Made by a program: the position numbers and the translations under genes. DNA of 64,000 nucleotides from Hyphomicrobiales bacterium (GTDB taxonomy: Bacteria; Pseudomonadota; Alphaproteobacteria; Rhizobiales; Rhizobiaceae). A model generated the notes under the pieces. It did no database searches and was not told where the DNA came from. It saw only the letters and a program-made list of their open reading frames with translations. Positions 12,217-44,819 of this stretch are shown here, in pieces. Every line of letters starts with the position of its first letter. The first letter of the stretch is position 1. The stretch lies in NCBI GenBank assembly GCA_900471815.1, contig UICE01000005.1, forward strand, positions 23,405-87,404, written 5' to 3'.

Positions 12217-12299
12217 GTTCCGCTACTTTCTGGTGCCTGGCTAAAACCTTATCTGGTTTTTTGCGAATGTGAACCCTGCCTGTACAGAAAATCTGCGAA

Positions 12300-13759: not shown

Positions 13760-13811
13760 GATGTAAACTGACCCTGAACCATGGGCACCACCATTGTTAA
13801 GGAACGGAAAA

Positions 13812-15804: not shown

Positions 15805-16757
15805 TGAAAAATGGCCATGCCTATTTGAATCACAGCGCGCAACAGCTGACCATCAGGATGATTGAGGACGCTGCTGCGCTGGGTATTTTACATAGCCGCG
15901 GCAGTCTCGGCGAGCAGCTGATAGATGCGGGGGCAAACTGCCAAGGTGGCATTGAGGCCGGATTGCGTATTATCGAAATCTGTTTGGGCGGGCTCGGCAC
16001 GGTATCAACGGTGATGAACAATGACCCGTGGCCCTACGCCCTTACAGTGCGCTCGTCACAACCCGTCCTTGCATGCCTTGCGAGCCAGTATGCGGGGTGG
16101 AATCTCTCGCATGAAGAATATTTCGCCATGGGTTCTGGTCCGGCGCGTGCACTGGCGCGTGTCGAGCCACTATTCCAGGAAATCGATTATCGCGAACCCG
16201 ATGCAAAAGCTTCGGTTGTCATCCTGGAGACGGCAAAACCCCCACCCCCTGCTGTTGTCGACAAGGTTTCCAAGGCAACGGGCATTGCCCCCGATGGGCT
16301 GACGTTCATCTATGCTCCAACGCAAAGCCTTACGGGGGCCGTGCAGATCGTTGGCCGTGTGCTCGAAGTTGCCATGCACAAAGCGCATGATCTGGGGTTT
16401 GCCTTGAATGATATTGTCGACGGTATTGGTACAGCCCCCATTCCCGCCCCGCATCCGGATTTCCTAACGGCCATGGGTAGGACGAATGATGCGATCATCT
16501 ATGGCGGAACCGTGCAATTGTTCGTAAAGGGCGATGCGAACGCTGCCCGTCAACTGGCCGAACAGCTGCCCAGCCATACCTCGCACGATCACGGCGAGCC
16601 GTTCGCCGATACATTCAAGAAGTTCAAAGGAGACTTTTATGCCATAGACCCGCGTCTTTTCAGTCCTGCCCGGGTCATTGTCACGGCGATTGAAACGGGC
16701 GATACCTTCCGTAACGGCAGCATCCACCAAAAAATGCTCGAGCGGTCACTGGGTTAG
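15804..16757 (+). CDS. mch: Methenyl-H4MPT cyclohydrolase
   Basis: 317 residues. The ATG shares its A with the stop codon of the upstream ligase (TGATG) and follows a strong GGGAGGA box. Family blocks are GANCQGGIEAG, MNNDPWPYALTVRSSQP and YFAMGSGPARALAR. Mch hydrolyses methenyl-H4MPT to 5-formyl-H4MPT, the step between MtdB and the Fhc complex. Length is normal. The gene is in the centre of the operon and identity is clear. Confidence 0.96.
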   Translation: MKNGHAYLNHSAQQLTIRMIEDAAALGILHSRGSLGEQLIDAGANCQGGIEAGLRIIEICLGGLGTVSTVMNNDPWPYALTVRSSQPVLACLASQYAGWNLSHEEYFAMGSGPARALARVEPLFQEIDYREPDAKASVVILETAKPPPPAVVDKVSKATGIAPDGLTFIYAPTQSLTGAVQIVGRVLEVAMHKAHDLGFALNDIVDGIGTAPIPAPHPDFLTAMGRTNDAIIYGGTVQLFVKGDANAARQLAEQLPSHTSHDHGEPFADTFKKFKGDFYAIDPRLFSPARVIVTAIETGDTFRNGSIHQKMLERSLG

Positions 16758-16767
16758 GCAGAAGATC

Positions 16768-17682
16768 ATGGCAGAAACGATACTCATTCTTTCCGACCGG
16801 ATCGACCGGCAGGTCAGGGAACTCCGGACGGCACTGCGTAAGCGTGGCGTGACCGTTTTGACCTATCCGCTTTCGGATATCGGCTTTGATAGCCGCTACC
16901 CCTCCGGCATTGCGATCCCTGGCATGAATGGCGTTCTGCCGGATGCTTCTATTGTGCGTTCGATTTCTTCAGGAACATTTGAAGCAATCACCCGCAGGCT
17001 TGGCATTTTGCATGCGCTCGCTCATCTCGGCGTGCCCGTGTGGAATTCGGCAAAAGCCGTCGAGCGATGCGTCGACAAATCCACGACCACATTCTTTCTC
17101 ACACAGGCTGGCTTGCCAACTCCTGAAACCTTTGCCGTGGAAAGCCTCGCCAATGCCAGGGCCGTGGCAGTGCGCGAGCTGACCAAGGGACCACTGGTGC
17201 TCAAACCGCTTTTCGGCTCGCAGGGGCGCGGTATCCGGCTTATTCAAAACATTGACGATCTGCCCGATCCGGAAGAAATTGACGATGTCTATTATCTGCA
17301 GCGTTTCGTGGCACGATCGGGTGCACCTTACTGCGATTACCGGGTTTTCACTTGTGCCGGCAAGGTGCTCGGCATGATGGAACGCCGCGCCGAAGGCTGG
17401 ATAACCAATATCGCCAAGGGTGGCAAAGGACAGACTGTCGTCGGGCCATTGCGGGCGGAGTTGGAAAAGCTGGCTCTTGCCGCCTCTGCCGCCATCGGGA
17501 CCGACTTTGCCGGAGTTGACATTATTCCGGCATCGGATGGCAGGCTTCTTATTCTCGAGGTGAACAGCATGCCCGCCTGGACAGGATTGCAGTCTGTCGT
17601 TCCTATACGGATCGCGGAAAGCATTGCGGATGCACTTGTCTCCATGATTGCGCCAGGTTTATCCGAAAGACCTGCGGCGTGA
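16768..17682 (+). CDS. RimK/MptN-like ATP-grasp glutamate ligase (Orf5-type)
   Basis: 304 residues. DKSTTTFFLTQAGLPTPET, VLKPLFGSQGRGI (ATP-binding loop) and ILEVNSMPAWTGLQ (metal-binding end) are those of RimK-family ATP-grasp enzymes. The archaeal relative MptN adds L-glutamate to H4MPT to make tetrahydrosarcinapterin. Here it probably adds glutamate to H4MPT or to the methylofuran chain. The start ATG is 10 bases after mch, and the end overlaps the next gene by four bases. Confidence 0.85.
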   Translation: MAETILILSDRIDRQVRELRTALRKRGVTVLTYPLSDIGFDSRYPSGIAIPGMNGVLPDASIVRSISSGTFEAITRRLGILHALAHLGVPVWNSAKAVERCVDKSTTTFFLTQAGLPTPETFAVESLANARAVAVRELTKGPLVLKPLFGSQGRGIRLIQNIDDLPDPEEIDDVYYLQRFVARSGAPYCDYRVFTCAGKVLGMMERRAEGWITNIAKGGKGQTVVGPLRAELEKLALAASAAIGTDFAGVDIIPASDGRLLILEVNSMPAWTGLQSVVPIRIAESIADALVSMIAPGLSERPAA

Positions 17683-18542
17683 CTTTGACGAGGCAACAGG
17701 TCAGGCGAGCCTACATCTATGCGTGCTATCAGGAAATCGAGGCTCTGAAGCCAGGTAATGTGCATCGTTTTGCCGATGGCCACCGTATGACTGCCCAGCA
17801 ATTCCTGGCCAGTGCACAAGTGTCTGCAGCCCCGATATCCAATCGCGCCCTTTCCGTTGGAAAGCGGATTCTGGATGCCGTCAAGGCGACGTCGCTCAAG
17901 GTCGGTACGAACACCAATCTTGGAATTCTTCTCCTTTGTGCGCCTTTGGCGAAAACTGCTGAAATGTCGGCAGGCGACCTTGAATTCGGGATAAAGGCGA
18001 CCCTTCAAAACCTGGATACAGACGACGCCAACGATATATTTGCCGCCATTGTGCATGCGCGCCCCGGCGGGCTTGGTTCAGCGCCCGAACATGATGTCAA
18101 CGATGCGCCCGACGTATCACTGCTGGAAGCAATGGGAGCTGCTGCGGACCGCGACATGATCGCTCGGCAGTATGTGACCGGTTTTTCCGACATTCTTGAT
18201 GGAGGGCTTCAGGCACATATGGCTGCAATGGACTGCGGTGAGCAGGACATGTGGCCGACCGTTTTCGTCTACCTTCATTTCCTTTCAAACTTTGTGGACA
18301 GTCACATCGTTCGCAAGCACAGTGTCGCAATCGCTGAACAGACAAGAAATGAAGCGCGGCAAATCCTGGATAAAGTACGGAGCATTCGAGATGGCAGGGA
18401 ACGTGAAAAACTGCTCCTTTCCTTTGATGCCAGGCTAAAGGCTGCAAACGTCAATCCTGGAACATCGGCAGACCTGACCGTGGCATGCCTTTTTGCATTC
18501 AAACTCAACTGGCTCTTGCATAATGGCCATGTTAATGCTTGA
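17679..18542 (+). CDS. CitG-like triphosphoribosyl-dephospho-CoA synthase homologue (Orf7-type)
   Basis: 287 residues, starting with GTG inside a GTGA overlap with the upstream gene. The pattern CYQEIEALKPGNVHRFADGHRM, TNTNLGILLLCAPL and HARPGGLG matches the CitG/MdcB family, which transfers ribose-phosphate between nucleotides. In methylotrophs this family member always travels with H4MPT genes ('orf7') and is believed to be needed for H4MPT or methylofuran synthesis. The chemistry is unproven; a phosphoribosyl-transfer step on the side arm is my inference. Confidence 0.85.
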   Translation: MTLTRQQVRRAYIYACYQEIEALKPGNVHRFADGHRMTAQQFLASAQVSAAPISNRALSVGKRILDAVKATSLKVGTNTNLGILLLCAPLAKTAEMSAGDLEFGIKATLQNLDTDDANDIFAAIVHARPGGLGSAPEHDVNDAPDVSLLEAMGAAADRDMIARQYVTGFSDILDGGLQAHMAAMDCGEQDMWPTVFVYLHFLSNFVDSHIVRKHSVAIAEQTRNEARQILDKVRSIRDGREREKLLLSFDARLKAANVNPGTSADLTVACLFAFKLNWLLHNGHVNA

Positions 18543-18695
18543 ATTTAAGCAGCGGATTTCATCTGCTGCTATCTGGCCAACCGACCCCATCCAAGGGTGC
18601 TGTGAACAAGGATAGCTGTCCATCGAGAGTCGTGTCTCGAGTGTACGGCGTCTGTGGACATACCTTTTGGAAACGGTTTAGGGAGGAATTTGGCC

Positions 18696-19202
18696 GTGGC
18701 AAAAATCAATAAAGTTATGGTTGGCGAATCGCTGATTGGCGATGGGAATGAAGTTGCGCATATCGATCTGTTGATCGGGCCGCGTGGCAGCGCAGTTGAA
18801 ACAGCATTCTGCAATGCTCTGACCAACAACAAGGACGGGTTTACGTCTCTTCTTGCGGTCATAGCGCCTAATATGGCCTGCAAACCGAACACGATCCTGT
18901 TCAACAAGGTGACCATCAAAGGAGCAAAGCAGGCTGTCCAGATGTTCGGTCCCGCACAGCATGCTGTGGCGAAGGCTGTTCAGGACAGTGTTGCCGATGG
19001 AACAATCCCGGCTGACGAAGCCGATGATGTCTTTATCTGCGTTGGCGTCTTCATTCACTGGGAAGCAGAGGATGATGCCAAAATCCAGGACTTTAACTAT
19101 CGCGCGACCAAGGAAGCCATCGAAAGGGCGGTGACCGGCAAGCCTACAGCGGCGGAAGCAACTGCAGCCCGCGATTCAGTCAAGCATCCATTCAGCGCTT
19201 AG
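18696..19202 (+). CDS. fae: Formaldehyde-activating enzyme
   Basis: 168 residues from a GTG at 18696, nine bases after GGGAGG. The sequence opens with [30 protein letters not shown], written in the literature as the Fae signature; the active-site His follows GNEVA. Fae joins formaldehyde to H4MPT to give methylene-H4MPT, the entry point of the pathway. It sits last in the operon after a 150-base gap, which may hold its own promoter because Fae is usually made in large amounts. Confidence 0.96.
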
Positions 19203-19339
19203 ACACGAGACAACCCCGCACAGAGTTCGCCCTCTGTCGAAACCGATGGCCTGTTGCGCCGGTTGGCAAAACGTCTGGGTTTTTGAACTGAAGATTGGGG
19301 GGAAATGGCAATTTCTTCCCAATCCTTGTCTGACTATAA

Positions 19340-20038
19340 TCACTGGAGGAGACCGGCAATCGCCTGCCGGTTCAATGTTCCATCGTGCAGAGATGTCGCT
19401 ACGAGCGCGCCGGAAATGCCGATCTCCTCCAGGCGCTCGAGATCGTGGATATTTCGGATACCACCTGCAGCCATTACAATGCGCCCGTCGGCTCGTTGTT
19501 TGATTGCTTTTAGCCGGTCGAAATCCGGCCCGATACCGGCTCCAATGCGCCGAAGGGTCATAACGATAATGCGCTCGGGCCAGTCTGAATTGCTTTCAAG
19601 AATGGATGAAGGTCCGATAAACTCATCACCGCGAAAATCCAGCGACAGAACCAATTGTGCGTGGTTGCGCAAAGCTCGAAGCAGGGATGCATCTTGCTGA
19701 GATTCAGACCCAAGAACGGGGCAGATACCCCTCTTGGCCAAAATTGTCTCAAATTGATGCAACTGCGAAAAACCGGCATCGAGCCATATTTTGTAGCTGT
19801 CGAGGAGAGGCTCAATCCTGGCCAAGACGGTCTCTGTTGAGTCACGGTGCAAAATTGCGTCGAGGTCGGCAATATAAAATGCTTCGAATGGATAGACTGT
19901 CCGCAAGCCGTTGGCGACATCCGGCAGCCGGGCCGTTTGACTCAAGGGTGTCTCAATCGGGCGATAGCATTCGCGCTCACCCATGCGAGCACGAACAACA
20001 AACCCATCTTTAATGTCGAGTACCGGAATGATATGCAC
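19340..20038 (-). CDS. HisA-family TIM-barrel protein of methanopterin islands
   Basis: About 232 residues from a GTG at 20038; the frame is open much further upstream, so the start is a homology choice (HIIPVLDIKDGFVVRA). It resembles ProFAR isomerase (HisA) with YIADLDAI, WLDAGFS and the phosphate-binding AAGGIRN..DLERLEEIG.SGALVATSLH. It is a diverged, non-histidine HisA relative that occurs with H4MPT genes. The reaction is unknown; an isomerase or aldolase step in cofactor synthesis is inferred. It is convergent with fae. Confidence 0.78.
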   Translation of the reverse strand: MHIIPVLDIKDGFVVRARMGERECYRPIETPLSQTARLPDVANGLRTVYPFEAFYIADLDAILHRDSTETVLARIEPLLDSYKIWLDAGFSQLHQFETILAKRGICPVLGSESQQDASLLRALRNHAQLVLSLDFRGDEFIGPSSILESNSDWPERIIVMTLRRIGAGIGPDFDRLKAIKQRADGRIVMAAGGIRNIHDLERLEEIGISGALVATSLHDGTLNRQAIAGLLQ

Positions 20039-27873: not shown

Positions 27874-28371
27874 ATGACCAACTACAAGACACTGGCATTG
27901 GCGGCACTTTTTGGTGTTCTGATTGCTCAATCGCCGGCATTCGCACAGGCCGATGACGATGATGACGATGACGCACAGGCTGCCCCGAAGACGGAGACGC
28001 AGGCCAAGGCGCCGGCCGTGACCCGCGCCAGCAAAAACGTGCCGGAGCTCATCCTTGGCTCAAAAGATGATGAGTTTACCGTAAACCAGAAGGATTTCGA
28101 GCTGGTGGCAGGACAGGGATACCGTTGGAAGATCACGTCCGCGGCAGGGTTGGAATATAAGTTTGCAACCGATCTGTTCAGGAATGTCTGGATGAACCAG
28201 ATCGTCATCAATGATCTTGAAGTCCATATGAACGGCGCCCCGGCCTGGCTGGAATTTGATGCGCCCGGCACCATCAATGTCCAGTTTACCGCCGTGCGTC
28301 CGGGCAAGTATACATGGTCGGTGCCCGACCTTGCTGACAAAGGCATGAAGGGTACAATAACTATCAAATAG
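27874..28371 (+). CDS. Secreted cupredoxin-like protein with an Asp-rich linker
   Basis: 165 residues. Signal peptide to about residue 25 (QSPAFAQ), then a run of seven Asp (27-33), a proline/alanine/threonine linker, and a beta-sandwich domain (about 55-165) with YRWKITSAAGLEYKF, FDAPGTINVQFTAVRPGKYTW and a closing GMKGTITIK, which recalls a cupredoxin. The classical Cys-His-Met copper ligands are absent, so it is probably not a blue copper protein. It is the third gene of the PQQ-associated operon. The acidic run could bind Ca or lanthanides; that is an inference. Confidence 0.7.
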   Translation: MTNYKTLALAALFGVLIAQSPAFAQADDDDDDDAQAAPKTETQAKAPAVTRASKNVPELILGSKDDEFTVNQKDFELVAGQGYRWKITSAAGLEYKFATDLFRNVWMNQIVINDLEVHMNGAPAWLEFDAPGTINVQFTAVRPGKYTWSVPDLADKGMKGTITIK

Positions 28372-34042: not shown

Positions 34043-34585
34043 TTAATAGGGTTCATTTTTCCGTGTCGGCTGCTTTGCAGCAACCCAGCCATCCGTACCC
34101 AACGGATACCAGAGAACCGCCTCATATCCCCACTCCATCGCCCGCTTGGCTGCATTCCATGACATCCAGCAATTCTCCATGCAGTAAAACAAGATCTTTC
34201 GCCGCTTGTCGTCTCCAAGCCGGGACATCAGCCCCTTACGGAAATAGGCTTCAGTCTCGCTGTTAATCACGCCATAACCCACATTCGCGAGCCAGATGCT
34301 GCCGGGAATATCCTCCCTTACCTTTTCCCTCCACACCGTACCCTGCGGCAGAGATGCCGGCTTTGGATCGTGGGGCAGTACATCGACAAAGACAGCTGCT
34401 TTGCTCTTCCACAATGCGATGGCCTCCTCAGTCGTGACAACCTGCGCACCCTTCAATGTTGCAGGCACTGGTGCCTTATAGTTTTCCAGCCTGTAGCCTG
34501 CGGGCTCGGAAACGGTATCGCCCGCAAGGGCAGCCGTTGGAGACAACCCCAACAAAACCGCCCAAAAACCGAACCATGTCCACAC
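34043..34585 (-). CDS. PQQ-associated CxxxCW rhodanese-like periplasmic protein
   Basis: 180 residues from a GTG at 34585, nine bases after AGGAGGG; an ATG at 34642 would overlap xoxJ. A signal peptide (VWTWFGFWAVLLGLSPTAALA) precedes a rhodanese-like domain with AVFVDVLP near the front and the motif ILFYCMENCWMSWNAAKRA, where two Cys flank three residues before Trp. This subfamily is known only from quinoprotein clusters ('PQQ-dependent catabolism-associated CXXCW'). The Cys pair suggests thiol or sulfane-sulfur chemistry in the periplasm. It is placed between xoxJ and pqqA. Confidence 0.85.
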   Translation of the reverse strand: MWTWFGFWAVLLGLSPTAALAGDTVSEPAGYRLENYKAPVPATLKGAQVVTTEEAIALWKSKAAVFVDVLPHDPKPASLPQGTVWREKVREDIPGSIWLANVGYGVINSETEAYFRKGLMSRLGDDKRRKILFYCMENCWMSWNAAKRAMEWGYEAVLWYPLGTDGWVAAKQPTRKNEPY

Positions 34586-34613
34586 CGGATTTTGCCCTCC
34601 TGACAAATGGTGG

Positions 34614-35477
34614 TTATTGCGTAATTGGCCTGTCTTTTTCATCGATCAGCGGCACCTGGAAATCCAATAATATCTTGTTGATCTCCTGCTGGTTTTCCCT
34701 GATCACCTTATTCAAGGTGCGTTTCCACTCCTGATCGGAAGGACGAACGCCCATGGTAATGCGATATGCCATATGCCGTGATTTCTCCTTCACCAAGGGG
34801 ATCACCACCAGATCAGGATCAATTTCCTTTGCATAGTAACCCGCCATCGGACCCCACAGCACTGCGGCCTCAATCGAGCCTTTTTTCAAGTCCTTGATCA
34901 TCGTCTCCGCCATTGACGGCGCCAGACGCGTATCGACCATAAGCGGATAAGGGTGCACATTGCGCATGTAACCAGCCTTGGCAAGATTGGCTGCCGGGGG
35001 TGTGCCGGCAACAACGCCAATCCTCCTGCCGGCAAGCTTCTGGTCTTCAATGGTTTCCACACCATCAAGACCGGTATTTTTCTTGTAGATCAGCACATAA
35101 GTCGATCGGTAATAAGCATTGGTGTTCTGCACCAGCTCATCACCTTGAGCGTAACCGATGATGATGTCGCAACGATTGGCACGCAGCGTATTTCTGACAA
35201 AACCGGTTGCCATCGGGTACCATGTATAGGCAACTGATTTCCGCCCGGTCTTGGCTGCAATGAGCTCAGCAAGTTTATTCTCGAAACCTTTGCCTTTATC
35301 GTCGGAAAATGGCAGGTTTGAAGGATCAGAACAAACCCGCAAAACATCGGGGTCCACCAGTTCACCTGCCGAACCGAGGCCGGATTCTTGGGCAGACGCA
35401 TTGAAGGACAGGCCGATCGCTGCACATGTAGCGAAAGCCATAACGATTTTTGCAATTTGTGCCCGGTTCATCAGCAT
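34614..35477 (-). CDS. xoxJ: XoxJ periplasmic binding protein of the methanol dehydrogenase system
   Basis: 287 residues; the ATG at 35477 lies right after the xoxG stop (35479). Signal peptide to about residue 29 (NASAQ). The mature protein is a family-3 solute-binding fold: LRVCSDPSNLPFSDDKGKGF is the standard MxaJ/XoxJ opening, followed by DIIIGYAQGDELVQ. XoxJ is believed to help activate or mature XoxF, or mediate its interaction with XoxG, rather than feed a transporter. Its place directly behind xoxF and xoxG confirms the identity. Confidence 0.93.
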   Translation of the reverse strand: MLMNRAQIAKIVMAFATCAAIGLSFNASAQESGLGSAGELVDPDVLRVCSDPSNLPFSDDKGKGFENKLAELIAAKTGRKSVAYTWYPMATGFVRNTLRANRCDIIIGYAQGDELVQNTNAYYRSTYVLIYKKNTGLDGVETIEDQKLAGRRIGVVAGTPPAANLAKAGYMRNVHPYPLMVDTRLAPSMAETMIKDLKKGSIEAAVLWGPMAGYYAKEIDPDLVVIPLVKEKSRHMAYRITMGVRPSDQEWKRTLNKVIRENQQEINKILLDFQVPLIDEKDRPITQ

Positions 35478-35478
35478 T

Positions 35479-36018
35479 CTAACCACCCATACAGGAGGTT
35501 TCGGCCTCTTTTGCGGCCTCCGGCTTATCTTCTTTCTTTGCCGGACGGCCGCGCGGGAGATCGCCGACTGCGCGTGCGCGCAAATAGACATAAAGATCAT
35601 CCATATAGCAGTAGACGTTCTTGTTCTCGCCGAATGCGGGCATGACTTTTTCGTTCCCGGCGCTCAGGTTCTTTCGGCCCTCCGCCACGATCGACAGAAA
35701 ATCGGCATAGGTCATTGTTTTCAGAGAATTTGCCAGGGCGGGAGCGAAAGAGGAGCCTGCGCCATCTGCACCATGGCACACGTTGCATTCGGAATTGAAG
35801 CGACGATATCCACTATAGGTGTACCAATCGACCGTTCCGTCTTCCTGTATCTTGAATGTAGGGTTTCCTTCCTTGTCGGCATATTTACCATTGTCCTGTG
35901 AGGCGACCGCAGCGGCGGCTTTGTCGTCGGCATGGGTACTGACCAAGCTTGCCAAGAGAGCAAAGCTGGCAGTTACGGCAAGAATCGTTAATCGGATCGG
36001 CATCAAGAAACCTCTCAT
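35479..36018 (-). CDS. xoxG: Cytochrome c XoxG, electron acceptor of XoxF
   Basis: 179 residues with a signal peptide ending VSTHA and a single haem c site, CNVCH at 78-82; VMPAFG near residue 125 supplies the axial Met. Two further Cys (YCYMDD and the C-terminal TSCMGG) could form a disulfide. XoxG takes electrons from PQQ in XoxF and passes them to the oxidase. An in-frame ATG at 36003 is an alternative start. The gene is 147 bases after xoxF with a strong hairpin between. Confidence 0.92.
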   Translation of the reverse strand: MRGFLMPIRLTILAVTASFALLASLVSTHADDKAAAAVASQDNGKYADKEGNPTFKIQEDGTVDWYTYSGYRRFNSECNVCHGADGAGSSFAPALANSLKTMTYADFLSIVAEGRKNLSAGNEKVMPAFGENKNVYCYMDDLYVYLRARAVGDLPRGRPAKKEDKPEAAKEAETSCMGG

Positions 36019-36165: not shown

Positions 36166-37995
36166 TCACTCAGGAACGGCAAAGACCGTCAATTGGCCAC
36201 CAAGAGCCGTATAGTCCGAGAGGCCGGCATATCCACCGACAGCGCCCAGACCATCCGTGCCCTTGGTCAGACCGGCAGCAAGGCCGATACCTGCCCAACC
36301 GCCAACGCCTGACAGAACGGCAACATATTGTTTGCCCTTATGTTCGTAGGTGGTGACATTGCCGATAATGCCGGAGGGTGTTTTGAACTTGTAGAGTTCT
36401 TTGCCGTCCTTATCGACCGCCTTGAGGTAGCCCTCGAGCGTTCCGTAAAAGACCACGTCGCCATCAGTTGCTAGTGCACCGGACCAAACCGAGAACTGTT
36501 CGGATTTAGACCAGACGATCTCGCCCTTTGCAGCATCCCAGGCAATAAAGTTACCCATGCCACCATGGCTGTTGGGAGCCGGGTACATGGAAAGCGTCGC
36601 ACCTATATAAGGTTGACCGGCAGTGTAACTGACTTTGTAGGGCTCATAGTCCATGCAGACATGATTTGTCGGCACGTAGAAGAGTTTGGTCTTTGGCGAA
36701 TACGATGCTGGCTGCTGATCCTTTGTGCCAAGAGCCGCAGGACAGATGCCGGTTGTATTGACATCTTCACCCTGGGCCTGTGTCGAATACTTGTCGACAA
36801 CCTTCGGACGGCCATAGGTCTTGCTGTCCTTGTCCATGTCGACTTCAGTAGCCCAGTTGACCGCCGGATCGTATTTTTTAGCGACGAGAAGCTCGCCGTT
36901 GGCACGATCCATCGTGTAAGCAAAGCCATTTCTGTCAAAATGTACGAGGACATCACGTGGCTTTCCGTCTACCTCGATTCCGTCAGCAAGGATCATTTCA
37001 TTGACGCCATCATAATCCCACTCATCATGTGGGGTCATCTGATAAAGCCATTTGGCCATGCCGGTGTCGGCATCACGAGCCATGATTGTCATTGACCACC
37101 GATTGTCGCCGGGCCGCTGACTTGGATTCCATGTCGACGGATTGCCAGTACCATAATAGATGAGATTCAGCTTGGGATCGTATGAATACCAACCCCAAGT
37201 TGTACCGCCACCGACTTTCCACTGATCGCCTTCCCAGGTGTTCGTACCAGAATCGGCACCCACAGGTTTGCCAAGTTGGGTTGTCTTTTCGGGATCGATC
37301 AGTGTTTCTTTGTCCGATCCCATTGACCAAGCCCGCCAAGCCTGCTTGCCATCCTTGATGTTGTAGGCAGTGAGCGCTCCACGCACACCGAATTCGCCGC
37401 CGGATATGCCAACAATCACTTTGTCCTTCACCACCATTGGTGCGGACGTTCCGGATTCGCCTTTGCTACCGTCCGCAGCTTCGCCATTCTTCACCGACCA
37501 GGCGACTTCACCTGTCTTGGCATCAAGTGCAACGAGCGTTGTATCGGCCTGATACAGGAATATCTTGCCATCGCCGTATGCGACGCCGCGATTGACCGTA
37601 TCGCAGCACATGATCGGAATAACATTGGAATCCTGTTTGGGCTCATATTTCCAAAGGATCTTACCATCATTGTTTAAATCAAGTGCAAAGACCGTATTCG
37701 GGTAAGGCGCGTGCACATACATCACGTCGCCGATAATGAGCGGACCACCTTCATGGCCACGCAGCACGCCCGTTGAAAATGTCCAGGCAACCTGGAGGTT
37801 CTTGACATTATCCTTGGTAATCTGGTTGAGTTTTGAGTAACGAGTATTGGCATAGTCGCCAGTCTGGATGGCCCAGTTCTTGGAATCCGAGATCAAGCCT
37901 TGAAGATCGTCATTGGCCAGAGCTCCACCCGCCAACGAGAACGTCATGGCTGTCGTAGCCAATGCAATTCCTATTAAATTTCTGTGTACACGCAT
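36166..37995 (-). CDS. xoxF: Lanthanide-type PQQ methanol dehydrogenase
   Basis: 609 residues, an eight-bladed quinoprotein with a Sec signal peptide (SLAGGALA). The key motif [12 protein letters not shown] has the catalytic Asp327 and the extra Asp329 that marks lanthanide-dependent XoxF; calcium-type MxaF has Ala there. Adjacent cysteines (C130-C131, IMCCD) form the vicinal disulfide above [22 protein letters not shown] and several W-docking blocks are present. It oxidises methanol, perhaps to formaldehyde or formate, in the periplasm. No mxaI is present. It begins the operon xoxF-G-J-rhodanese-pqqABCDE. Confidence 0.97.
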
Positions 37996-38442: not shown

Positions 38443-38799
38443 ATGAAAATGCCTGGAGTGAAAACCATCAAGCCGATTTTGTTAGCAAGCGCAGCAATCG
38501 CATTTCCAATGCTGGCACATGCTGCGTCAGATTATCCGACGCCGGCGGTTGCAGAGTATGTTTACGGTTGCATGAAAGCGAACGGAGAAAATCGTGACAC
38601 CCTTCAGCGATGCTCCTGTTCAATCGATGTTATCGCCTCGGTTGTGACCTATGAGCGCTATGAAGCAGCAGAAACTTATAAGCAAATGGGGCTGGTTCCG
38701 GGTGAGAACGGTGTTCTTTTTCGCGAAAGCGCACCGGCAAAAGCTGCTATCAGCGAACTCAAGCGGGCTCAGGCAGAGGCAGACATCCGCTGCTTTTAA
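38443..38799 (+). CDS. Small secreted Cys-containing protein of the xox cluster
   Basis: 118 residues; a second ATG two codons later is possible. Signal peptide to about residue 28 (PMLAHAAS). The mature part has four Cys: YGCMKANGEN, QRCSCS and the C-terminal IRCF, likely two disulfides. The family is a short periplasmic protein that recurs next to xoxF/quinoprotein genes. Function is unknown. It is transcribed away from xoxF and ends 10 bases from the SoxYZ-like gene on the other strand. Confidence 0.7.
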   Translation: MKMPGVKTIKPILLASAAIAFPMLAHAASDYPTPAVAEYVYGCMKANGENRDTLQRCSCSIDVIASVVTYERYEAAETYKQMGLVPGENGVLFRESAPAKAAISELKRAQAEADIRCF

Positions 38800-38809
38800 A
38801 GTTTACGGC

Positions 38810-39661
38810 TCAAAGGCTTGAGGATTCGAGCGGCCATTCATCCTGGAATTTTTTGCCTTCGGTATCCAGGGCCTCAGCCTTGAGCTCCTCTCCGGTCCTC
38901 GCGTCGAAGGCGAACCGAAAATTGGGATCTTCTGAGATCGATATACCACCTTGCATCGACAGGATCAGCTGATTGCCCTGGGAGACGGTGAGCCCCTGGA
39001 TAAAATGGGCCGGGATATAATATCGTGTCAACTGATCCATCTGTAACCCGGAATTGTTCGGATGGCGGATCATCAGCTGCATCTCCGTGGCCCGGGTCAA
39101 GGGCTCCAAGCCAGGCGCCTTGGAGGGAAACACCCGCAGCTTCATTTTACCGAGCGATGCCATTGCTTCGTCCTGATTCTTCATCGCGGGTGCCGAGCAC
39201 CCCCCGGAAGCCTTCACAAAGACTTCCGTCATGTGCAGCTTATCATCTTCCGTTTCAGCAATAGCCCGCACATAGGAATAGGCATTAACCCGCAGGCGCG
39301 TTGCCAGATGGGTGACGCCAGCGTTCTGCCCGAAGGTAAAGACCGCGGCGACAGGCGCCGGGTTCTCGTCGACGATCAAGGTCACGGTCTTGATGCGTCC
39401 CGTCTTGCTGTCTGTCTTGAAGTGCATATCGACAGGAACGACAGCTGCGTCTTCGGCGCGCTTGGGCGCTTCAATTCTGACGATCCCCTCGCCCTGTTCT
39501 ATTGGCCGGCTCCCGAAAACATCGCTCTTCAGGCTCTTCCACGTTGCCGCCTCTGGCGCGCTGGCATTCTGGCTTTCCGCTGTTGCCGGACTGATGGCCC
39601 AAAGCAATCCCGCCGCGATCACAGCAGCACAACCCTTGGTTCGCTTCATATTCCAAGTCAT
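38810..39661 (-). CDS. Quinoprotein-associated SoxYZ-like carrier protein
   Basis: 283 residues from an ATG six bases after GGAGG. Signal peptide ends SPATAES. The N-terminal half resembles SoxY, with the Cys-bearing motif KASGGCSAPAM (Cys155), but in the middle rather than at the end of a swinging arm; the C-terminal half resembles SoxZ (MQLMIRHPNNSGLQMDQLT, YIPAHFIQGLTVSQGNQLIL). SoxYZ carries sulfur intermediates. Here, far from any sox operon and beside xoxF, it belongs to the 'quinoprotein dehydrogenase-associated' subfamily. The cargo is unknown; thiol-bound sulfur or a metal complex are possible. Confidence 0.88.
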   Translation of the reverse strand: MTWNMKRTKGCAAVIAAGLLWAISPATAESQNASAPEAATWKSLKSDVFGSRPIEQGEGIVRIEAPKRAEDAAVVPVDMHFKTDSKTGRIKTVTLIVDENPAPVAAVFTFGQNAGVTHLATRLRVNAYSYVRAIAETEDDKLHMTEVFVKASGGCSAPAMKNQDEAMASLGKMKLRVFPSKAPGLEPLTRATEMQLMIRHPNNSGLQMDQLTRYYIPAHFIQGLTVSQGNQLILSMQGGISISEDPNFRFAFDARTGEELKAEALDTEGKKFQDEWPLESSSL

Positions 39662-39749
39662 GTTCGCCTCCACCAAATTTCGTTGGCGGTGCCCGGCCAG
39701 TCGTTATCATACCACTTGGCACGATGGTCTGGCAAACACCAACAAGCAG

Positions 39750-40709
39750 CTACTCCCACTCAAGTTCGGCATAGGCAGCAGTTGCATTGCGCTCATTGTA
39801 CTGGTTGAAAAGATGCCATTTGTCGCGTTCACTTTGGGCGGCGGTCCGGTTTGCATCCGTCATGGAGCGGCCATCGGCAAGCGCCATGCGAATGTCCCTG
39901 GCGAGCGCGTCGAAATAACGACTTTCATCGTCGAGTGCCTGTGGCCACGGTGCCGGAACAGTCCCGTGCCCGGGAACGGCCAATTCGGCATGAATCTCCC
40001 TTAAATCCTTCAGCTGCCTGATCCAGCCAAGCAGCGACCCGTCAATTGTGGGGATATGCTGCGTAAAGCACAGGTCGCCAGTGAACAGAATCCGTGTCTG
40101 TTGATCGAATACAGACAGATCATTGTCGGTATGTGCCGGTTTCCAAGCTCTCAACATCACCTTGCGGTTGCCCAGGTCCAGCTCTTGCTCGCCGGCAACG
40201 GTTATCGCAGGCGGAATTATTCTGATGCTGGACATGAGTTCGGGACCGAGGATCGCACGATAACTTTGCAAATAATAATCGCCGCGATTGGCCAATGCCC
40301 GTCTCAGATTGTGGTGGCCCACTATAACGGCTCCCGTGCCTTCAAAGGCCGAGTTTCCAAAAATGTGGTCGGGATGCATATGAGTGTTGATGAGATACCG
40401 AATCGGCTTGTCCGTTTTGGCTCGAATTGCCGCCACGAGCCTTCTGCCCTCTGCCGCACTGCCGCCACTGTCGATAGCGGCAACGCCCTCATTGCCGATG
40501 ATGAAGCCAATGTTGCATATTTCGCCTTCATTGGCGGTACTCATCATCTCCGGCGCTCCGGTGAATGCGAAGATGCCTTTCGCTATTTCCTTGACGGGAA
40601 GCGCTTCGGTTCCGGCCGGCTCTGCGCTGGCAAACCGTGCATGGGGCATACAGCAGCCGGCAAGCAGCAATCCGGTGCCCAAAAAGGTACGTCGCGAAGG
40701 TCCGGCCAT
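39750..40709 (-). CDS. Quinoprotein relay system zinc metallohydrolase
   Basis: 319 residues from the ATG at 40709 behind GGAGGAG. The N-terminus has a Tat signal with a Cys at its end (SRRTFLGTGLLLAGC), so the protein may be a periplasmic lipoprotein. The metallo-beta-lactamase core has THMHPDHIFGN, the HxHxDH zinc motif, and FTGDLCFTQH and PGHGTVP. Such hydrolases travel with the SoxYZ-like carrier and PQQ dehydrogenases. By analogy with persulfide dioxygenases it could release cargo from the carrier. The substrate is unknown. Confidence 0.87.
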   Translation of the reverse strand: MAGPSRRTFLGTGLLLAGCCMPHARFASAEPAGTEALPVKEIAKGIFAFTGAPEMMSTANEGEICNIGFIIGNEGVAAIDSGGSAAEGRRLVAAIRAKTDKPIRYLINTHMHPDHIFGNSAFEGTGAVIVGHHNLRRALANRGDYYLQSYRAILGPELMSSIRIIPPAITVAGEQELDLGNRKVMLRAWKPAHTDNDLSVFDQQTRILFTGDLCFTQHIPTIDGSLLGWIRQLKDLREIHAELAVPGHGTVPAPWPQALDDESRYFDALARDIRMALADGRSMTDANRTAAQSERDKWHLFNQYNERNATAAYAELEWE

Positions 40710-40710
40710 G

Positions 40711-41487
40711 TCAGGCTCCTCCATCCGGAAATCTGTCGAGGAATGATCTGAGAATATCCCGCTTTGCCTGTTCGGTTCTGCTCTGGCGGGGCAATTTGAT
40801 GTCGAAGGTTCCGATAACATGTGCAGGACGATGCGACAGAACGATAATCCGATCGGACAACAGGATGGCTTCCCTGATATTGTGCGTGACCATGAGTGCT
40901 GTTGTCGGTCGCTCCGCCCATACGCCCATCAGCAGGTGACGAAGCTGCTGAGCCGTGGGTTCGTCTAGAGAAACAAAAGGCTCATCGAGCACCAGAATAT
41001 CAGGTTCAATGGCCAGAGCCCGCGCAATTGCCGCTCTGCGTGCCAGCCCGAGCGAAAGCTCCCCCGGGTAGAACGTTCTCATCCGGGACAAGCCCAATGT
41101 GCTTAAAAGCGCATCGAGATTCGTGTCCTTGAGGTGATCCGGCAGCGCGAGACGGACATTTTGCTCAACGGAGCGCCATGGAAGCAGGAGCGGCTCCTGA
41201 AATACCGCTCCGATGCGGGGATGCGCCAGCCCGGAGAGCTGCATTGTACCGCGATAATCGGTGTCGAGCCCCAGCAATATGCGCAGTGTCGTCGTCTTGC
41301 CGCATCCGGACGGCCCCACAATGCAAGCAAACTCGTTCTGCGCCACCTCAAAATGCAAATTCTGAAGCACGGTGATAGCTTCGCCATTCGATGACCGGAA
41401 CGACTTCTCTTCTATGTCGACCTTAAGCTTCGTGGCGGCGCCAACGTGTGGATGTTTGTTCAAGAGGCTGCACCAATACAAGTTCAA
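40711..41487 (-). CDS. TauB/SsuB-like ABC transporter ATPase
   Basis: About 250-258 residues; no ATG is available, and TTG codons at 41487 or 41463 overlap the permease gene. Walker A is VGPSGCGKTTT and Walker B is ILVLDEPFVSLDE. The signature is ELSLGLARRAAIARAL instead of the usual LSGGxxxR, a clear departure. The family takes up sulfonates, nitrate or thiamine precursors. It is the last of a three-gene transporter set read toward the metallohydrolase gene, only one base before its start. Confidence 0.85.
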   Translation of the reverse strand: MNLYWCSLLNKHPHVGAATKLKVDIEEKSFRSSNGEAITVLQNLHFEVAQNEFACIVGPSGCGKTTTLRILLGLDTDYRGTMQLSGLAHPRIGAVFQEPLLLPWRSVEQNVRLALPDHLKDTNLDALLSTLGLSRMRTFYPGELSLGLARRAAIARALAIEPDILVLDEPFVSLDEPTAQQLRHLLMGVWAERPTTALMVTHNIREAILLSDRIIVLSHRPAHVIGTFDIKLPRQSRTEQAKRDILRSFLDRFPDGGA

Positions 41488-42247
41488 TCAATAGCATCAC
41501 CGCAACGAATGCCAAAGTGTAGGCAAGGATTGCAGCGACATCGAAGAGTTGGAAAAACAGATTGATCTGGAAGCCGACACCGTTGGCTCTGCCCAGCAGC
41601 TCCACGACAAGCACTATTTTCCAGATGAGGGAAATACCGGATCTGGACGCCGCGGCTATAAAGGGCTGCAATTGCGGCAGCAGGATATGACGCAGCCGGT
41701 CCATTCGGCCAAAGCGGTAAATTTTCGCCATCTCGCCATAGCGCTCATCCAAAGCCCGTGCGCCCTCGCGCATTGTGACAACAACATTGGGAATCTTGTT
41801 AAGCGCAACTGCTCCGATAGCCGCTGCCTCGTTGAGGCCAAACCAGATATAGGCGAGCACAATGATCACCAGAGCGGGTATGTTCAGGAACAGTATAACC
41901 CAGGGATTGAAAAACCGGTCAGCACCTCTGTGCCTTCCGAGCGCAACGCCGATAGCAGAGCCAATCAGCATCGCCAGAAAGAACGAGGCTGCGACCCGCC
42001 AAAGCGTCATGCCCAGATGATAGCCCATGTCGCCGCTGGCTGTCTCACGCAGGAAAGCCTGCAAGACGAGAAGAGGCGCGGGAAGGGACCGGCTTGGCCA
42101 AAGCGAAGCTCCGATGTGCCATGCGACGAGCAAAACTGCAAAGGAAATGCATCCCATCGTGACCGACGACCAATGATGTCGTGAACCTCCGCCTTTCCCT
42201 GTCTGGAAGTTGGAGATCAGGGCCGGGTCCGTCACTGCGTCCTCCAA
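41423..42247 (-). CDS. TauC/SsuC-like ABC transporter permease
   Basis: 274 residues with six membrane segments, for example VTMGCISFAVLLVAWHIGAS, FFNPWVILFLNIPALVIIVL and AILAYTLAFVAVMLLIELVL. EGARALDERYGEMAKIYRFG, RLRHILLPQLQPFIAAASRSG is the EAA loop that contacts the ATPase. It overlaps the substrate-binding gene by 16 bases and the ATPase gene at its end. Partner of the neighbouring ATPase and binding protein. Confidence 0.88.
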   Translation of the reverse strand: MEDAVTDPALISNFQTGKGGGSRHHWSSVTMGCISFAVLLVAWHIGASLWPSRSLPAPLLVLQAFLRETASGDMGYHLGMTLWRVAASFFLAMLIGSAIGVALGRHRGADRFFNPWVILFLNIPALVIIVLAYIWFGLNEAAAIGAVALNKIPNVVVTMREGARALDERYGEMAKIYRFGRMDRLRHILLPQLQPFIAAASRSGISLIWKIVLVVELLGRANGVGFQINLFFQLFDVAAILAYTLAFVAVMLLIELVLVQPLEQTSTRWRRHEA

Positions 42248-43212
42248 AACGTTCCGGGAGCCAATGTTTTGCCAGGTCCGACCAGTCGCTCACCTCCAAG
42301 TTCGGCAAGAATTGCATAGAGTTTTGCGGCATCCTCCTCTTCTTCTTCGACGGAACGGCGGGGAATGCCTTCGCGATAGCGGTCTCGCAGCACCTGCAGC
42401 TCGCGCCCCTCCGCCTTGATGACTGGAGAGAGCCGCTGCCATTCTTCATCGGAACTGGCGAGCAGTTTCTTCGCATCACGGCTGGCTTTGAGAAAAGCTT
42501 CAATAAGCTCAGGGTGGTCACGGGCCCATTTCTCGCGGAATATAAATCCGATCGCCGAGACGGCACCTGTGGCGCCCAGATTTCTTGCAGCATCGCTAGT
42601 GCTGATCAGGCGATGAAAGCCCCGCGCTTCGAGCCGTGCACAAAAGTTCCAGAAATTTAAAATGGCATCCAGTTCGCCCTGTTCCGCCTTTTCCGCAAGC
42701 AATGGTGGTGCGCCGAAAACAATCTCGTTTTGTGCAGGCAGATCAAGCGCTTGTTTTTTTGCAAGCGCTTGTATGAGCAGCCAGCTCTTATCGAGCGGAC
42801 CGCCGGCAACACCAATCTTCTTGCCGTTCAGATCGGCAAGTTTTTTTATGGGCGAGCCATCGCGTACCATCAAAGCTCCAACAGAGCTGGAATACGCTGC
42901 AAAGCTTATGTCCTCGCCGGATGTGCGTTGACGTGACACCCACAGCCAATCGGCAACGATGATATCGACATCACCGGCCATCATTGCCACATTGGTAGCA
43001 TCTTCGCTGGCAAAAAAACGCACATCAAGATCAATATTGTACTTGTTGTCGATCCCATGATGCCTGATGGTGTCCAGCTCCCAGTTCACAGTCCCGAACC
43101 GCAATACGCCCACGCGAACCTTCTCAACGGCTTCAGCTATTTGACTGAAGAACAGGCCAAGCAGCAACGCCAGCAGGAAGGTGGCACAGCCCAGTCGTCG
43201 ATATGATCTCAC
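42232..43212 (-). CDS. Xox-associated ABC substrate-binding protein (SsuA/TauA-like)
   Basis: 326 residues. Signal peptide ends QIAEA. The mature protein is a NMT1/SsuA type solute-binding fold (VGVLRFGTVNWELDTIRHHG, DIIVADWLWVSRQR, GKKIGVAGGPLDKSWLLIQA). An acidic patch, VEEEEEDAAK, is near the end. Homologues occur beside quinoprotein dehydrogenases; the ligand is not known. Sulfonates would be the default guess, but a C1- or lanthanide-related ligand would suit the site better. It is first of the transporter operon. Confidence 0.85.
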   Translation of the reverse strand: MRSYRRLGCATFLLALLLGLFFSQIAEAVEKVRVGVLRFGTVNWELDTIRHHGIDNKYNIDLDVRFFASEDATNVAMMAGDVDIIVADWLWVSRQRTSGEDISFAAYSSSVGALMVRDGSPIKKLADLNGKKIGVAGGPLDKSWLLIQALAKKQALDLPAQNEIVFGAPPLLAEKAEQGELDAILNFWNFCARLEARGFHRLISTSDAARNLGATGAVSAIGFIFREKWARDHPELIEAFLKASRDAKKLLASSDEEWQRLSPVIKAEGRELQVLRDRYREGIPRRSVEEEEEDAAKLYAILAELGGERLVGPGKTLAPGTFWRTQ

Positions 43213-43254
43213 AATGTCCTCCCAGACCGATTTGCCGTCCCGCCGTCTACAATC

Positions 43255-43464
43255 CTATAACGTCGTCTCGCCGGTGGGATATACGCATTTCCATCGGACA
43301 ACACGAAGCTTGGGATGCTCCTCACTCCATTTAGCAATTTCGGTAGGTGCCAAAAACAGGCAATTGGTGATCCCGCCCCTGTCTTCAAAATGCAGTCGCT
43401 CTTCCCGGCAGCTTGACGGGTCCGACACGAGGCAAATGGTTAAAACGAGATCGATAACGTCCAT
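43255..43464 (-). CDS. Conserved small Cys-containing protein
   Basis: 69 residues beginning MDVIDLVLTICLVSDPSSCREE and ending WSEEHPKLRVVRWKCVYPTGE. Three spaced Cys plus one more suggest metal or disulfide binding. It lacks a classic signal peptide, although the N-terminus is hydrophobic. I recognise the sequence pattern as a conserved small hypothetical protein of alphaproteobacteria but not a function. It is 42 bases upstream of the ABC binding-protein gene on the same strand, so likely co-transcribed. Confidence 0.6.
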   Translation of the reverse strand: MDVIDLVLTICLVSDPSSCREERLHFEDRGGITNCLFLAPTEIAKWSEEHPKLRVVRWKCVYPTGETTL

Positions 43465-43797: not shown

Positions 43798-44184
43798 ATG
43801 CGATATCTTGTTATGCTGACAGCTATGTCAGCTACTATTGTTTATGCTGGAGGAGCCACGGCTCAGGAGGGGGATGCAACAGCCGGAGCAACGGTTTTCA
43901 AAAAATGTACGGCCTGTCACGTAGCCGACAGCGACAAGAACAAGGTCGGACCTTCGCTGAACGGCCTGTTTGGAAGGACAGCAGGCACACATCCTGGCTT
44001 TAATTATTCGCCAGCGATGAAGGCTGCAGGCGCTGCGGGTCTGGTATGGGATAGTGCCAGCTTACGCGAATATCTGCATGATCCCAAGGCGAAGGTCAAA
44101 GGCACCAAAATGGCCTTTGCGGGTCTCAAGGATGAAACCGACATTACAAATCTTGAGGCATATCTCAAACAATATTCCAAATAA
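43798..44184 (+). CDS. Class I cytochrome c (c2 type)
   Basis: 128 residues. Signal peptide to about residue 22 (GGATAQ). One haem c site, CTACH at 37-41, and KMAFAGLKDETD near 104-115 with the axial Met. KVGPSLNGLFGRTAGTHPGFNYS is typical of mitochondrial-like cytochrome c2. It is small and soluble and could carry electrons from XoxG (or XoxF) to the terminal oxidase, analogous to cytochrome cH. It is followed by a good terminator, so it is a single-gene unit. Confidence 0.93.
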   Translation: MRYLVMLTAMSATIVYAGGATAQEGDATAGATVFKKCTACHVADSDKNKVGPSLNGLFGRTAGTHPGFNYSPAMKAAGAAGLVWDSASLREYLHDPKAKVKGTKMAFAGLKDETDITNLEAYLKQYSK

Positions 44185-44264: not shown

Positions 44265-44819
44265 TTATTTATCACGCCATTTGATGGAGCAACCAACCGA
44301 GGCGAATTGTTCGCGCGGCCCGGACCCCGTTTCGGCAATTTCCACCATTGCCTCAAACAGGTCACGGCGCAGATTGGCACTGGCTTCCTGTTTACGCGAT
44401 CCATCCAGGCGCCCGCGATATTGCAGTTTTCCTGCCGCGTTGAATCCAAAAAAATCGGGCGTGCAGACTGCATTGTAGAGACGCGCAATACTTTGATCCG
44501 CATCATGCAAATAAGGAAAAGGCAGGCCATTCTTTCGACTGAATGTGCACATTCCTTCATAGGAGTCGGATGGGTAGGCGATGGGGTCATTGGCGTTGAT
44601 GGCAACGAACCCGATGCCAAGCTGTTTCAGATCGCGGGCATCGCGGACAATGCGCTGAATGACCGCCTTCACATAAGGACAATGATTGCAGATGAATGCA
44701 ACGACCAGGCCTGTGTTTTTCGCCTGTGACAGGATCGAATACCGCCTTCCGTCCACACCAAGGAGTGTTGCATCCACGGCCTGCCAGCCAAAATCGCATA
44801 GAGGTGCTATTGCAGCCAT
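44265..44819 (-). CDS. Thioredoxin-fold redoxin (AhpC/TSA type)
   Basis: 184 residues. The thioredoxin-fold opening LVVAFICNHCPYVKAVIQRI carries a CxxC active site (about C44 and C47). YPSDSYEGMCTFSRKNGLPFPYL and QSIARLYNAVCTPDFFGFN follow, a pattern of the redoxins widespread in proteobacteria. No signal peptide, so cytoplasmic. It lies 12 bases after cbbE in the same direction and may be part of the cbb transcript; a role in thiol control of the Calvin cycle is possible but not shown. Confidence 0.85.
   Translation of the reverse strand: MAAIAPLCDFGWQAVDATLLGVDGRRYSILSQAKNTGLVVAFICNHCPYVKAVIQRIVRDARDLKQLGIGFVAINANDPIAYPSDSYEGMCTFSRKNGLPFPYLHDADQSIARLYNAVCTPDFFGFNAAGKLQYRGRLDGSRKQEASANLRRDLFEAMVEIAETGSGPREQFASVGCSIKWRDK

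Follow-up and report, generated by a model that had tools for sequence, protein, structure and literature searches.

Accessory genes beside xoxF in a Rhizobiaceae methylotrophy island: a probable Orf6, a PqqT-type importer and a SoxYZ-like carrier with its hydrolase, for which an aldehyde relay is tentatively proposed

Introduction

In Methylobacterium extorquens AM1 the genes META1p1750-1746 are pqqB, pqqCD, pqqE, orf7 and orf6; deletion of orf6 lowered growth on methanol with lanthanum (La) from 0.16 to 0.03 per hour and deletion of orf7 lowered it to 0.08 per hour, after a 9 h lag, both requirements being seen with La only (PMC7391723; papers are cited here by PubMed Central number and from excerpts of their text). 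The binding protein PqqT is represented in the PDB together with pyrroloquinoline quinone (PQQ) and gadolinium (9B1V; PMC12828617). The phrase SoxYZ-like carrier occurs in PMC10568851 and PMC11970703, soxH is named in a xoxF5 gene cluster in a figure legend (PMC5934484), and a 2026 review lists the Pseudomonas putida copies of carrier and hydrolase as unexplained (PMC12997753); no proven function of either protein was found in the open-access literature. Here we analyse positions 38443-43464 of a 64 kb stretch of DNA (the window; assembly GCA_900471815.1, contig UICE01000005.1, positions 23,405 to 87,404) from a 4.6 Mb alphaproteobacterial genome in 19 contigs, where a small cysteine protein, a SoxYZ-like carrier, a metallohydrolase and an ATP-binding cassette (ABC) importer are encoded beside the methanol dehydrogenase gene xoxF.

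Our data suggest that these genes are XoxF accessory genes in three separable parts, namely a PqqT-type importer, a probable Orf6, and the carrier with its hydrolase (often joined by a CxxxCW protein), the most likely mechanism of the last being a periplasmic aldehyde relay; to this reading as a whole, relay included, we assign a probability of roughly 0.38. An earlier sequence-only reading had placed a carrier, a Zn hydrolase, an ABC transporter and a CxxxCW protein here, which NCBIfam and Pfam matches bear out. It also held that methanol oxidation explains none of the proteins surrounding xoxF, which fails for the probable Orf6, with its La-dependent growth defect, and for the PqqT-type importer, and that this was the best candidate for an undescribed system, which does not hold either, since the families carry NCBIfam names, the P. 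putida copies are in the review and soxH is in the figure legend cited above. Within the open-access literature the new elements are the identification of the small cysteine protein as Orf6 and of the neighbouring importer as PqqT-type, the pairing of carrier and hydrolase subtypes with dehydrogenase class, and the pattern of gfa and frmA genes; the relay chemistry proposed below was likewise not found there.

Carrier and hydrolase subtypes follow the dehydrogenase

The carrier gene (38810-39676, minus strand) encodes a fused SoxYZ-like, quinoprotein-dehydrogenase-associated protein (TIGR04557, 286.6 bits; cut-off 140). Its start is probably the ATG at 39661. Counting from the TTG start puts the cysteine of its GGCSAP arm (codon at about 39199) at position 160, and counting from the ATG, the sixth codon of that frame, puts it at 155, in agreement with the Cys155 of the sequence-only reading. 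The predicted fold aligns with SoxY (Z 10.5, root mean square deviation (rmsd) 2.0 over 108 residues) and with SoxZ (Z 7.7, rmsd 2.1 over 103 residues). GGC is invariant in a 24-row alignment, the arm of the window protein (KASGGCSAP) is internal, and 109 of 117 carriers have a GGC[SAT]xP arm. The hydrolase (39750-40820, minus strand, probable start at 40709 or 40724), of metallo-beta-lactamase fold, scores 397.8 bits as quinoprotein relay system zinc metallohydrolase 2 (TIGR04559; cut-off 280). Its N-terminal SRRTFLG reads as what we take to be a twin-arginine signal, and its binuclear metal ligands (H-x-H-x-D-H/H/D/H) are complete, the seven ligand sites being kept in 94 to 102 of 103 aligned relatives. 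The rhodanese-like CxxxCW protein (34043-34642, minus strand) scores 211.7 bits as a PQQ-dependent catabolism-associated CXXCW motif protein (TIGR03865; cut-off 128.05), with a weak PF00581 match; among relatives over 80 bits its first cysteine is conserved in 83/83 and its second in 81/83. The dehydrogenase (36166-37995, minus strand; TIGR03075, 756.5 bits) is XoxF-type, with vicinal cysteines (CC) and the lanthanide-type Asp in HDEWDYDG, the extra Asp two residues past the catalytic Asp being what we take as the marker of a lanthanide-dependent XoxF.

Comparing the gene neighbourhood of the carrier in other genomes, as the sequence-only reading had proposed, revealed conservation far beyond chance. 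In the best 80 of at least 583 confirmed GTDB matches (flanks up to 10 kb, many from Bradyrhizobium) the hydrolase was found at 73 loci, the CxxxCW protein at 62, XoxJ at 61 and a XoxF-type dehydrogenase at 36. A scan of 190 alphaproteobacterial genomes gave 15 above the TIGR04557 cut-off, 13 of them with the hydrolase (E 1e-40); the two without it are G087 (G and L numbers are our own for genomes and loci), in which reading through a stop codon joined a SoxY and a SoxZ that are encoded separately (GGCGG), and G125, whose arm is divergent (GGCQGA). A TIGR03075 dehydrogenase (E 1e-130) was present in 11 of the 15 against a background of 42/190, so that the linkage of carrier and hydrolase to PQQ dehydrogenases foreseen by that reading stands. 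The two accompany lanthanide-type alcohol dehydrogenases in Alphaproteobacteria and in the betaproteobacterium Azoarcus, and also in Pseudomonas putida (PMC12997753). One genome (G130) was considered as a PQQ-less carrier genome and rejected; no dehydrogenase was found, yet pqqE is present, so that an assembly gap is probable.

In six-frame scans, soxY and soxZ read through a stop codon can pass the TIGR04557 cut-off, and raw counts from unannotated genomes therefore overstate the family. A 398-genome scan gave 61 genomes above the cut-off, partly such read-throughs, and only 20 chosen stretches from 18 genomes were used; these 18 carrier genomes were our own choice, and one of them (G526) has a sulfur-type arm. 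At two loci (L171, 5700-16100; L154, 8800-13000) two carrier genes lie 3-8 kb apart, one arm being altered (KTSGQGACAAP, L171).

The subtype of a carrier goes with that of its hydrolase, and both go with the subtype of the alcohol dehydrogenase. Carriers were typed A (XoxF-class) or B, and hydrolases 1 or 2, by their scores against profiles of XoxF-linked members, with limits fixed after the scores had been seen (205 for the hydrolase, the nearest cases being 204 and 210). Within 6 kb, 82 of 100 A carriers had a type-2 hydrolase, none had type 1 and 18 had neither, and 15 of 17 B carriers, whose arm is mostly GGGC[ST], had a type-1 hydrolase, none type 2 and two neither. The nearest dehydrogenase open reading frame (ORF; >250 residues, within 6 kb) of the A carriers was XoxF-type in 38 cases and of another class in seven, with none in 55; for B carriers it was of another class in 11, never XoxF, and absent in six. 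Because the limits were set with the scores in view, the real check on the pairing comes from the trees (106 pairs thinned to 73, most Bradyrhizobium dropped), in which 15 B and 58 A members, typed by carrier score alone, separate completely for both proteins, with support after midpoint rooting of 0.999 (B) and 0.065 (A) in the carrier tree and 0.991 and 0.997 in the hydrolase tree. One genome (G418) holds both sets, each adjoining its own dehydrogenase (L154, L155). The lanthanide Asp occurs in 67 of 74 locus dehydrogenases, comprising all 41 of XoxF type and 26 of 33 others; however, 17 of those 26 belong to one Bradyrhizobium group and lie 5-7 kb away, so these cases weigh little. The seven enzymes lacking it are second enzymes of a locus (L079, L160, L163) or lie in L159 and L164, where no other Asp-bearing dehydrogenase was seen.

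That the pairing tracks enzyme class is more readily understood of a protein acting on or together with the dehydrogenase than of a general scavenger, and this bears on the suggestion that the carrier handles sulfur, removing sulfite, thiosulfate or persulfide from PQQ or serving a XoxF that acts on thiosulfate, with the hydrolase freeing the bound group. The SoxYZ fold, the SoxH relationship of the hydrolase and the rhodanese domain all speak for such a role, as do the PmpAB proteins near the Hyphomicrobium denitrificans copy (PMC11582611), a thiosulfate-oxidizing XoxF in Advenella (as cited by PMC6548844), a published proposal of PQQ protection (PMC12997753), and one locus (L161, 8280-10712) where flavocytochrome c sulfide dehydrogenase adjoins a fused SoxYZ-like carrier whose arm, GGCGGT, is of the GGCGG type; the TIGR04557 model may thus lump a sulfur carrier with PQQ-linked ones. 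A place for the window carrier in a thiosulfate Sox system was nevertheless rejected for its own genome, which has one SoxY match and a best SoxB score of 134.5 against 550 bits, and SoxB exceeds its cut-off in 4 of the 18 carrier genomes. Beyond the subtype pairing, unexpected for a sulfur scavenger, the prevalent arm is the internal GGC[SAT]xP and not the C-terminal GGCGG, and flavocytochrome c sulfide dehydrogenase (one seed protein) was found at 3 of 129 carrier loci compared with 23 of 129 for formaldehyde and formate genes (14 seed proteins, which favours the latter). Overall we regard sulfur handling as unlikely.

The PqqT-type importer and a probable Orf6

The importer comprises an ABC ATPase (40711-41487; PF00005), a permease (41423-42247; PF00528) and a periplasmic binding protein (42232-43212), all on the minus strand. 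The binding protein matches PqqT (PDB 9b1u/9b1v) and 9ooz at E of about 1e-72 and 245-247 bits (246.7 bits across residues 30-322 for 9b1u), the next PDB match being the taurine-binding 6ssy (E 2.3e-6) and the next best score 30.4 bits. A taurine or sulfonate importer (TauABC, SsuABC) was rejected on scores of 56.1 against 304.25 bits (TIGR01729) and 57.5 against 163.5 bits (TIGR01728), and on these two grounds the importer is read as PqqT-type. Most likely it binds and recaptures PQQ, judging by the similarity of its binding protein to PqqT. A loose GGxxDK-type motif (D then K or R), present in 57 of 60 PqqT-like proteins, may correspond to K142 of PqqT if a 27-residue offset is assumed. The sequence-only reading had guessed at a sulfur-containing or metal-chelating substrate; the sulfur part finds no support, and the metal-chelating part was a fair guess, as PQQ chelates lanthanides.

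Across the 80 carrier loci the binding protein occurs at 49 (within 5 kb of the carrier at 45), and at the other 31 no PqqT-like binding protein was seen within flanks of up to 10 kb. Conversely, seven plasmid loci (Rhizobium leguminosarum L174, R. indicum L178, Ensifer L179, Microvirga L180 and L191, Sinorhizobium sojae L181, R. sullae L187) hold xoxF, Orf6 and the PqqT-type importer with no carrier, hydrolase or CxxxCW gene at the locus, L187 having only a weak 35-bit match to the CxxxCW model. The plasmid loci were hand-picked for species spread (19 of 126 small-cysteine-protein records and 4 of 119 carrier records). This separability counts against two explanations that treat the genes as one unit. 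In the first, the carrier and hydrolase would process PQQ adducts and the importer would return the cofactor, making a five-gene salvage unit; in its favour, the window genes for importer, hydrolase and carrier share a strand and overlap or nearly adjoin, and the importer resembles PqqT, but it occurs in the absence of the carrier at those seven loci, the carrier is without a visible importer at 31 of 80, and subtype pairing would be needless for one shared cofactor, which makes such quality control quite improbable. The second is the periplasmic chain of the sequence-only reading, in which the carrier binds, the hydrolase cleaves and the importer takes up a sulfur compound. The genes are indeed adjacent in the window and its relatives, but the importer resembles PqqT, its binding protein stays under the family cut-offs for sulfonate and taurine, and importer and small cysteine protein occur apart from carrier and hydrolase (e.g. 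L174), so that this chain now appears very improbable.

The small cysteine protein (38443-38799, plus strand) is a secreted helical protein that gave no match in Pfam or NCBIfam. Twelve aligned members share the consensus DYPTxARADYVFGCMKANGETRxxLExCSCSID ... RAQAEAExRCF with four invariant cysteines. An AlphaFold2 model has five helices (mean predicted local distance difference test score, pLDDT, 84.3) and no Foldseek match at E <=0.001; the best VIA-align hit (Z 4.7, rmsd 3.8 over 84 residues) is of a kind that helical bundles reach by chance. The gene is present at 67 of the 80 carrier loci, and at 64 it faces the carrier gene convergently at a distance of no more than 500 bp. Of the 190 alphaproteobacterial genomes 11 have it, nine being above the carrier cut-off and the other two (G027, G131) holding six and four PQQ dehydrogenase matches. 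In two Methylobacterium loci (L064, L093) the order is pqqB-pqqC-pqqE-orf7-small cysteine protein, which matches META1p1750-1746 and makes it very probable that the protein is Orf6 (META1p1746), needed for full XoxF function. This identification comes from synteny shown for the Methylobacterium homologs, to which the window gene is tied by homology; if correct, it assigns a mutant phenotype to a protein labelled hypothetical in annotated plasmid records. Of the two small cysteine proteins that the sequence-only reading had counted, this one lies in the interval and a second was not found inside it, the nearest candidates outside being a cytochrome c (43798-44184) and an AhpC/TSA protein (44265-44819).

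No orf7 homolog was found in the window. Elsewhere a candidate Orf7 by gene order, of about 220-235 residues, directly precedes the small cysteine gene in 18 distinct places (23 matches, five of them in two overlapping loci), for example at 11055-11759 of L173, 13887-14555 of L064 and up to 18957 of L093; the L173 member gave no Pfam or NCBIfam match.

A possible aldehyde relay

With the importer and Orf6 set apart, a small testable unit of carrier and hydrolase remains. Glyoxalase II, which has the same binuclear ligand set as the hydrolase, splits thioesters. This ligand set, the folds and arm of the carrier, the conserved cysteines of the CxxxCW protein and the gene order of one locus (L169: carrier, CxxxCW, a thioredoxin-like protein with APWCPIC, identified by eye, and a CcdA-like protein) lead us to propose, tentatively, an aldehyde relay, every chemical step of which is conjectural. 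The arm thiol of the carrier would take formaldehyde as a hemithioacetal in the periplasm (or a larger aldehyde beside ExaF/PedH-type enzymes), the lanthanide dehydrogenase would oxidize the carrier-bound hemithioacetal to a thioester, and the glyoxalase-II-like hydrolase would release formate (or the corresponding acid) and free the thiol. The CxxxCW protein, plus CcdA and thioredoxin where present, would keep the carrier thiol reduced; it is plausible that the thioredoxin-like and CcdA-like genes of L169 form the electron path. The carrier arm would need entry into the XoxF active site. Periplasmic conversion of formaldehyde to formate is known for ExaF (PMC12180729).

The distribution of cytosolic formaldehyde genes offers two hints. 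At all seven plasmid loci with xoxF, Orf6 and the importer listed above, gfa and frmA lie in the cluster. Among 14 plasmid xox loci without carrier, hydrolase and CxxxCW (judged at the locus only, flanks up to 10 or 12 kb) frmA is present at nine, eight of them with gfa too, compared with 9 of 129 carrier loci (Fisher p 1.3e-6, relatedness ignored), and within the Rhizobiaceae (GTDB sense, grouped by hand) at 7 of 10 compared with 2 of 18 (p 0.003, relatedness again ignored). As the loci are related and hand-picked and the flanks limited, the pattern is only a hint; strict exclusion was rejected on account of the nine carrier loci with frmA. The second hint comes from Azospirillum, where the carrier and hydrolase genes come straight after, or run on into, tetrahydromethanopterin (H4MPT) genes (including L184).

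Many of our own data and several published results weigh against the relay or the wider reading that contains it. XoxF1 of M. extorquens yields formaldehyde, not formate, in vivo (PMC6414531), and P. putida transposon data obtained without rare earths show minimal phenotypes (PMC12997753). The carrier and CxxxCW proteins have sulfur proteins as relatives, the PmpAB near the H. denitrificans copy is YeeE-like (PMC11582611), and the CxxxCW protein is missing from 9 of the 15 genomes above the carrier cut-off. Type-2-like hydrolases (E <=1e-40, below cut-off) occur in 4 of 190 genomes with no carrier above cut-off (G001, G036, G096, G117). A XoxF-type dehydrogenase lies at only 36 of the 80 GTDB carrier loci, and 55 of the A and six of the B carriers have no dehydrogenase ORF nearby. 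Five of the 14 loci without carrier lack both frmA and gfa (L176, L177, L185, L186, L189), and frmA is also seen close to the carrier at nine loci. The window's own genome encodes Fae and FrmA, each belonging to a cytosolic route for formaldehyde, and one or both occur in 16 of the 18 chosen carrier genomes (all but G023, 71% complete, and G169), so that the relay would not be the only formaldehyde sink, a role we rejected for the carrier.

Another competitor is thiol-redox maturation, in which carrier, hydrolase and CxxxCW protein would serve the dehydrogenase by forming, mending or shielding its vicinal disulfide or its PQQ/lanthanide site, as proposed in PMC12997753. The CxxxCW protein is rhodanese-like with two conserved cysteines and weakly matches the rhodanese/DsbD selenoprotein model TsoB (31.6 bits), it is followed by CcdA/DsbD-like genes at L167 and L169 (the L167 homolog of the L169 CcdA-like protein being DsbD_TM by Pfam) and by the thioredoxin-like gene at L169, and vicinal CC is present in all 74 aligned dehydrogenases. 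Conversely, the hydrolase has no evident role in such maturation, 14 plasmid xox loci lack these genes at the locus, and Ca-type enzymes carry the disulfide in species that lack them (PMC12997753). A transposon screen in an mxaF fae background, which selects for loss of formaldehyde production, recovered 28 genes including xoxF1, xoxG, xoxJ, orf6, orf7, pqq and lut genes, and none that the source describes as a carrier, hydrolase or CxxxCW protein (PMC7391723, judged by descriptions). Their absence is expected if they act on the product and do not enable XoxF, and weighs against maturation more than it supports the relay. We consider maturation about as unlikely as sulfur handling, both being serious competitors of the relay all the same.

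If the aldehyde relay is correct, it would explain how methanol oxidation can reach formate outside the cytosol while some of the formaldehyde is never set free, lanthanide dehydrogenases would have two substrates, the free alcohol and a carrier-bound hemithioacetal, and the textbook scheme based on glutathione and nicotinamide adenine dinucleotide (NAD) would be recast as one based on protein and PQQ.

Setting of the locus

Downstream of xoxF on the minus strand lie genes for a XoxG-type c-type cytochrome (35479-36018; TIGR03874, 234.1 bits) and a XoxJ-type periplasmic binding protein (34614-35600; TIGR03871, 293.2 bits, above the curated cut-off). The gene order is the same as in an annotated Phyllobacterium zundukense plasmid, and the carrier shares 82% identity with its counterpart in Phyllobacterium sp. 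2063. H4MPT formaldehyde-oxidation genes (fhc genes, mtdB, mch, fae and companions) occupy about 7800-20000, and an importer of the PQQ-alcohol-dehydrogenase-associated kind, presumably the Lut/Ped lanthanide importer, lies at 25.6-30.7 kb. The window runs from the H4MPT genes through the lut-type importer, pqq genes, xoxFGJ with the CxxxCW gene and the helper set to Calvin-cycle (cbb) genes, and these form one compact methylotrophy island. This layout fits the XoxF-Calvin pathway demonstrated in Bradyrhizobium and Sinorhizobium (PMC12628762).

Between the beta-propeller and ATPase genes of the lut-type cluster, 27874-28371 encodes 165 residues that begin with a signal-like stretch and include seven consecutive Asp. 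The protein might bind lanthanides; it gave no match in Pfam or NCBIfam, and homologs are present in relatives. The AhpC/TSA-family protein at 44265-44819 has a CxxC motif and a weak ResA match, is named thioredoxin family protein in the Phyllobacterium annotation, and lies between the Calvin-cycle genes and the helper cluster in the window and 11 tiled relatives. No part of the window matched an Rfam family at the gathering thresholds.

Comparison with known systems

The window is a further instance of the NCBIfam quinoprotein relay families (TIGR04557, TIGR04559 and also TIGR04558, with TIGR03865 and TIGR03871) and shows no fundamental difference from them; the name implies a relay, here predicted to transfer substrate, and the family authors may have meant "relay" in a similar sense. 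The window binding protein is a close sequence match to PqqT of Methylobacterium extorquens (9b1u, 9b1v), differing in that permease and ATPase genes are adjacent, with PQQ as the predicted ligand. Compared with orf6 of M. extorquens AM1, the window gene stands alone beside the carrier and does not follow pqqE-orf7. The ped cluster of P. putida has a rhodanese-like (PP_2666), a fused SoxYZ-like (PP_2677) and a SoxH-like (PP_2678) protein beside a lanthanide dehydrogenase; PP_2677 and PP_2678 adjoin pedH in the review's table, whereas the window has the XoxF class (PMC12997753, compared by description). Like SoxYZ of the Sox system, the window carrier has the SoxY and SoxZ folds and a GGC arm, but it is fused, its arm is the internal GGCSAP and not a C-terminal GGCGG, and its scores of 74.8 and 61.6 bits are under the cut-offs of 125 and 76.

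The remaining likeness is to the glutathione-dependent formaldehyde pathway (named in PMC12628762). With Gfa, FrmA and FrmB the proposed relay would share the logic of thiol adduct, oxidation and thioester hydrolysis, and it is conceivable, though on balance doubtful, that carrier and hydrolase are its periplasmic, protein-tethered counterpart, holding the aldehyde on a swinging-arm cysteine and with subtypes matched to the dehydrogenase. Whereas the Gfa/FrmA/FrmB route is cytosolic and uses a small-molecule thiol and NAD, the relay would run in the periplasm, with the substrate tethered to a protein and its oxidation linked to PQQ, a relationship of analogy and not of membership.

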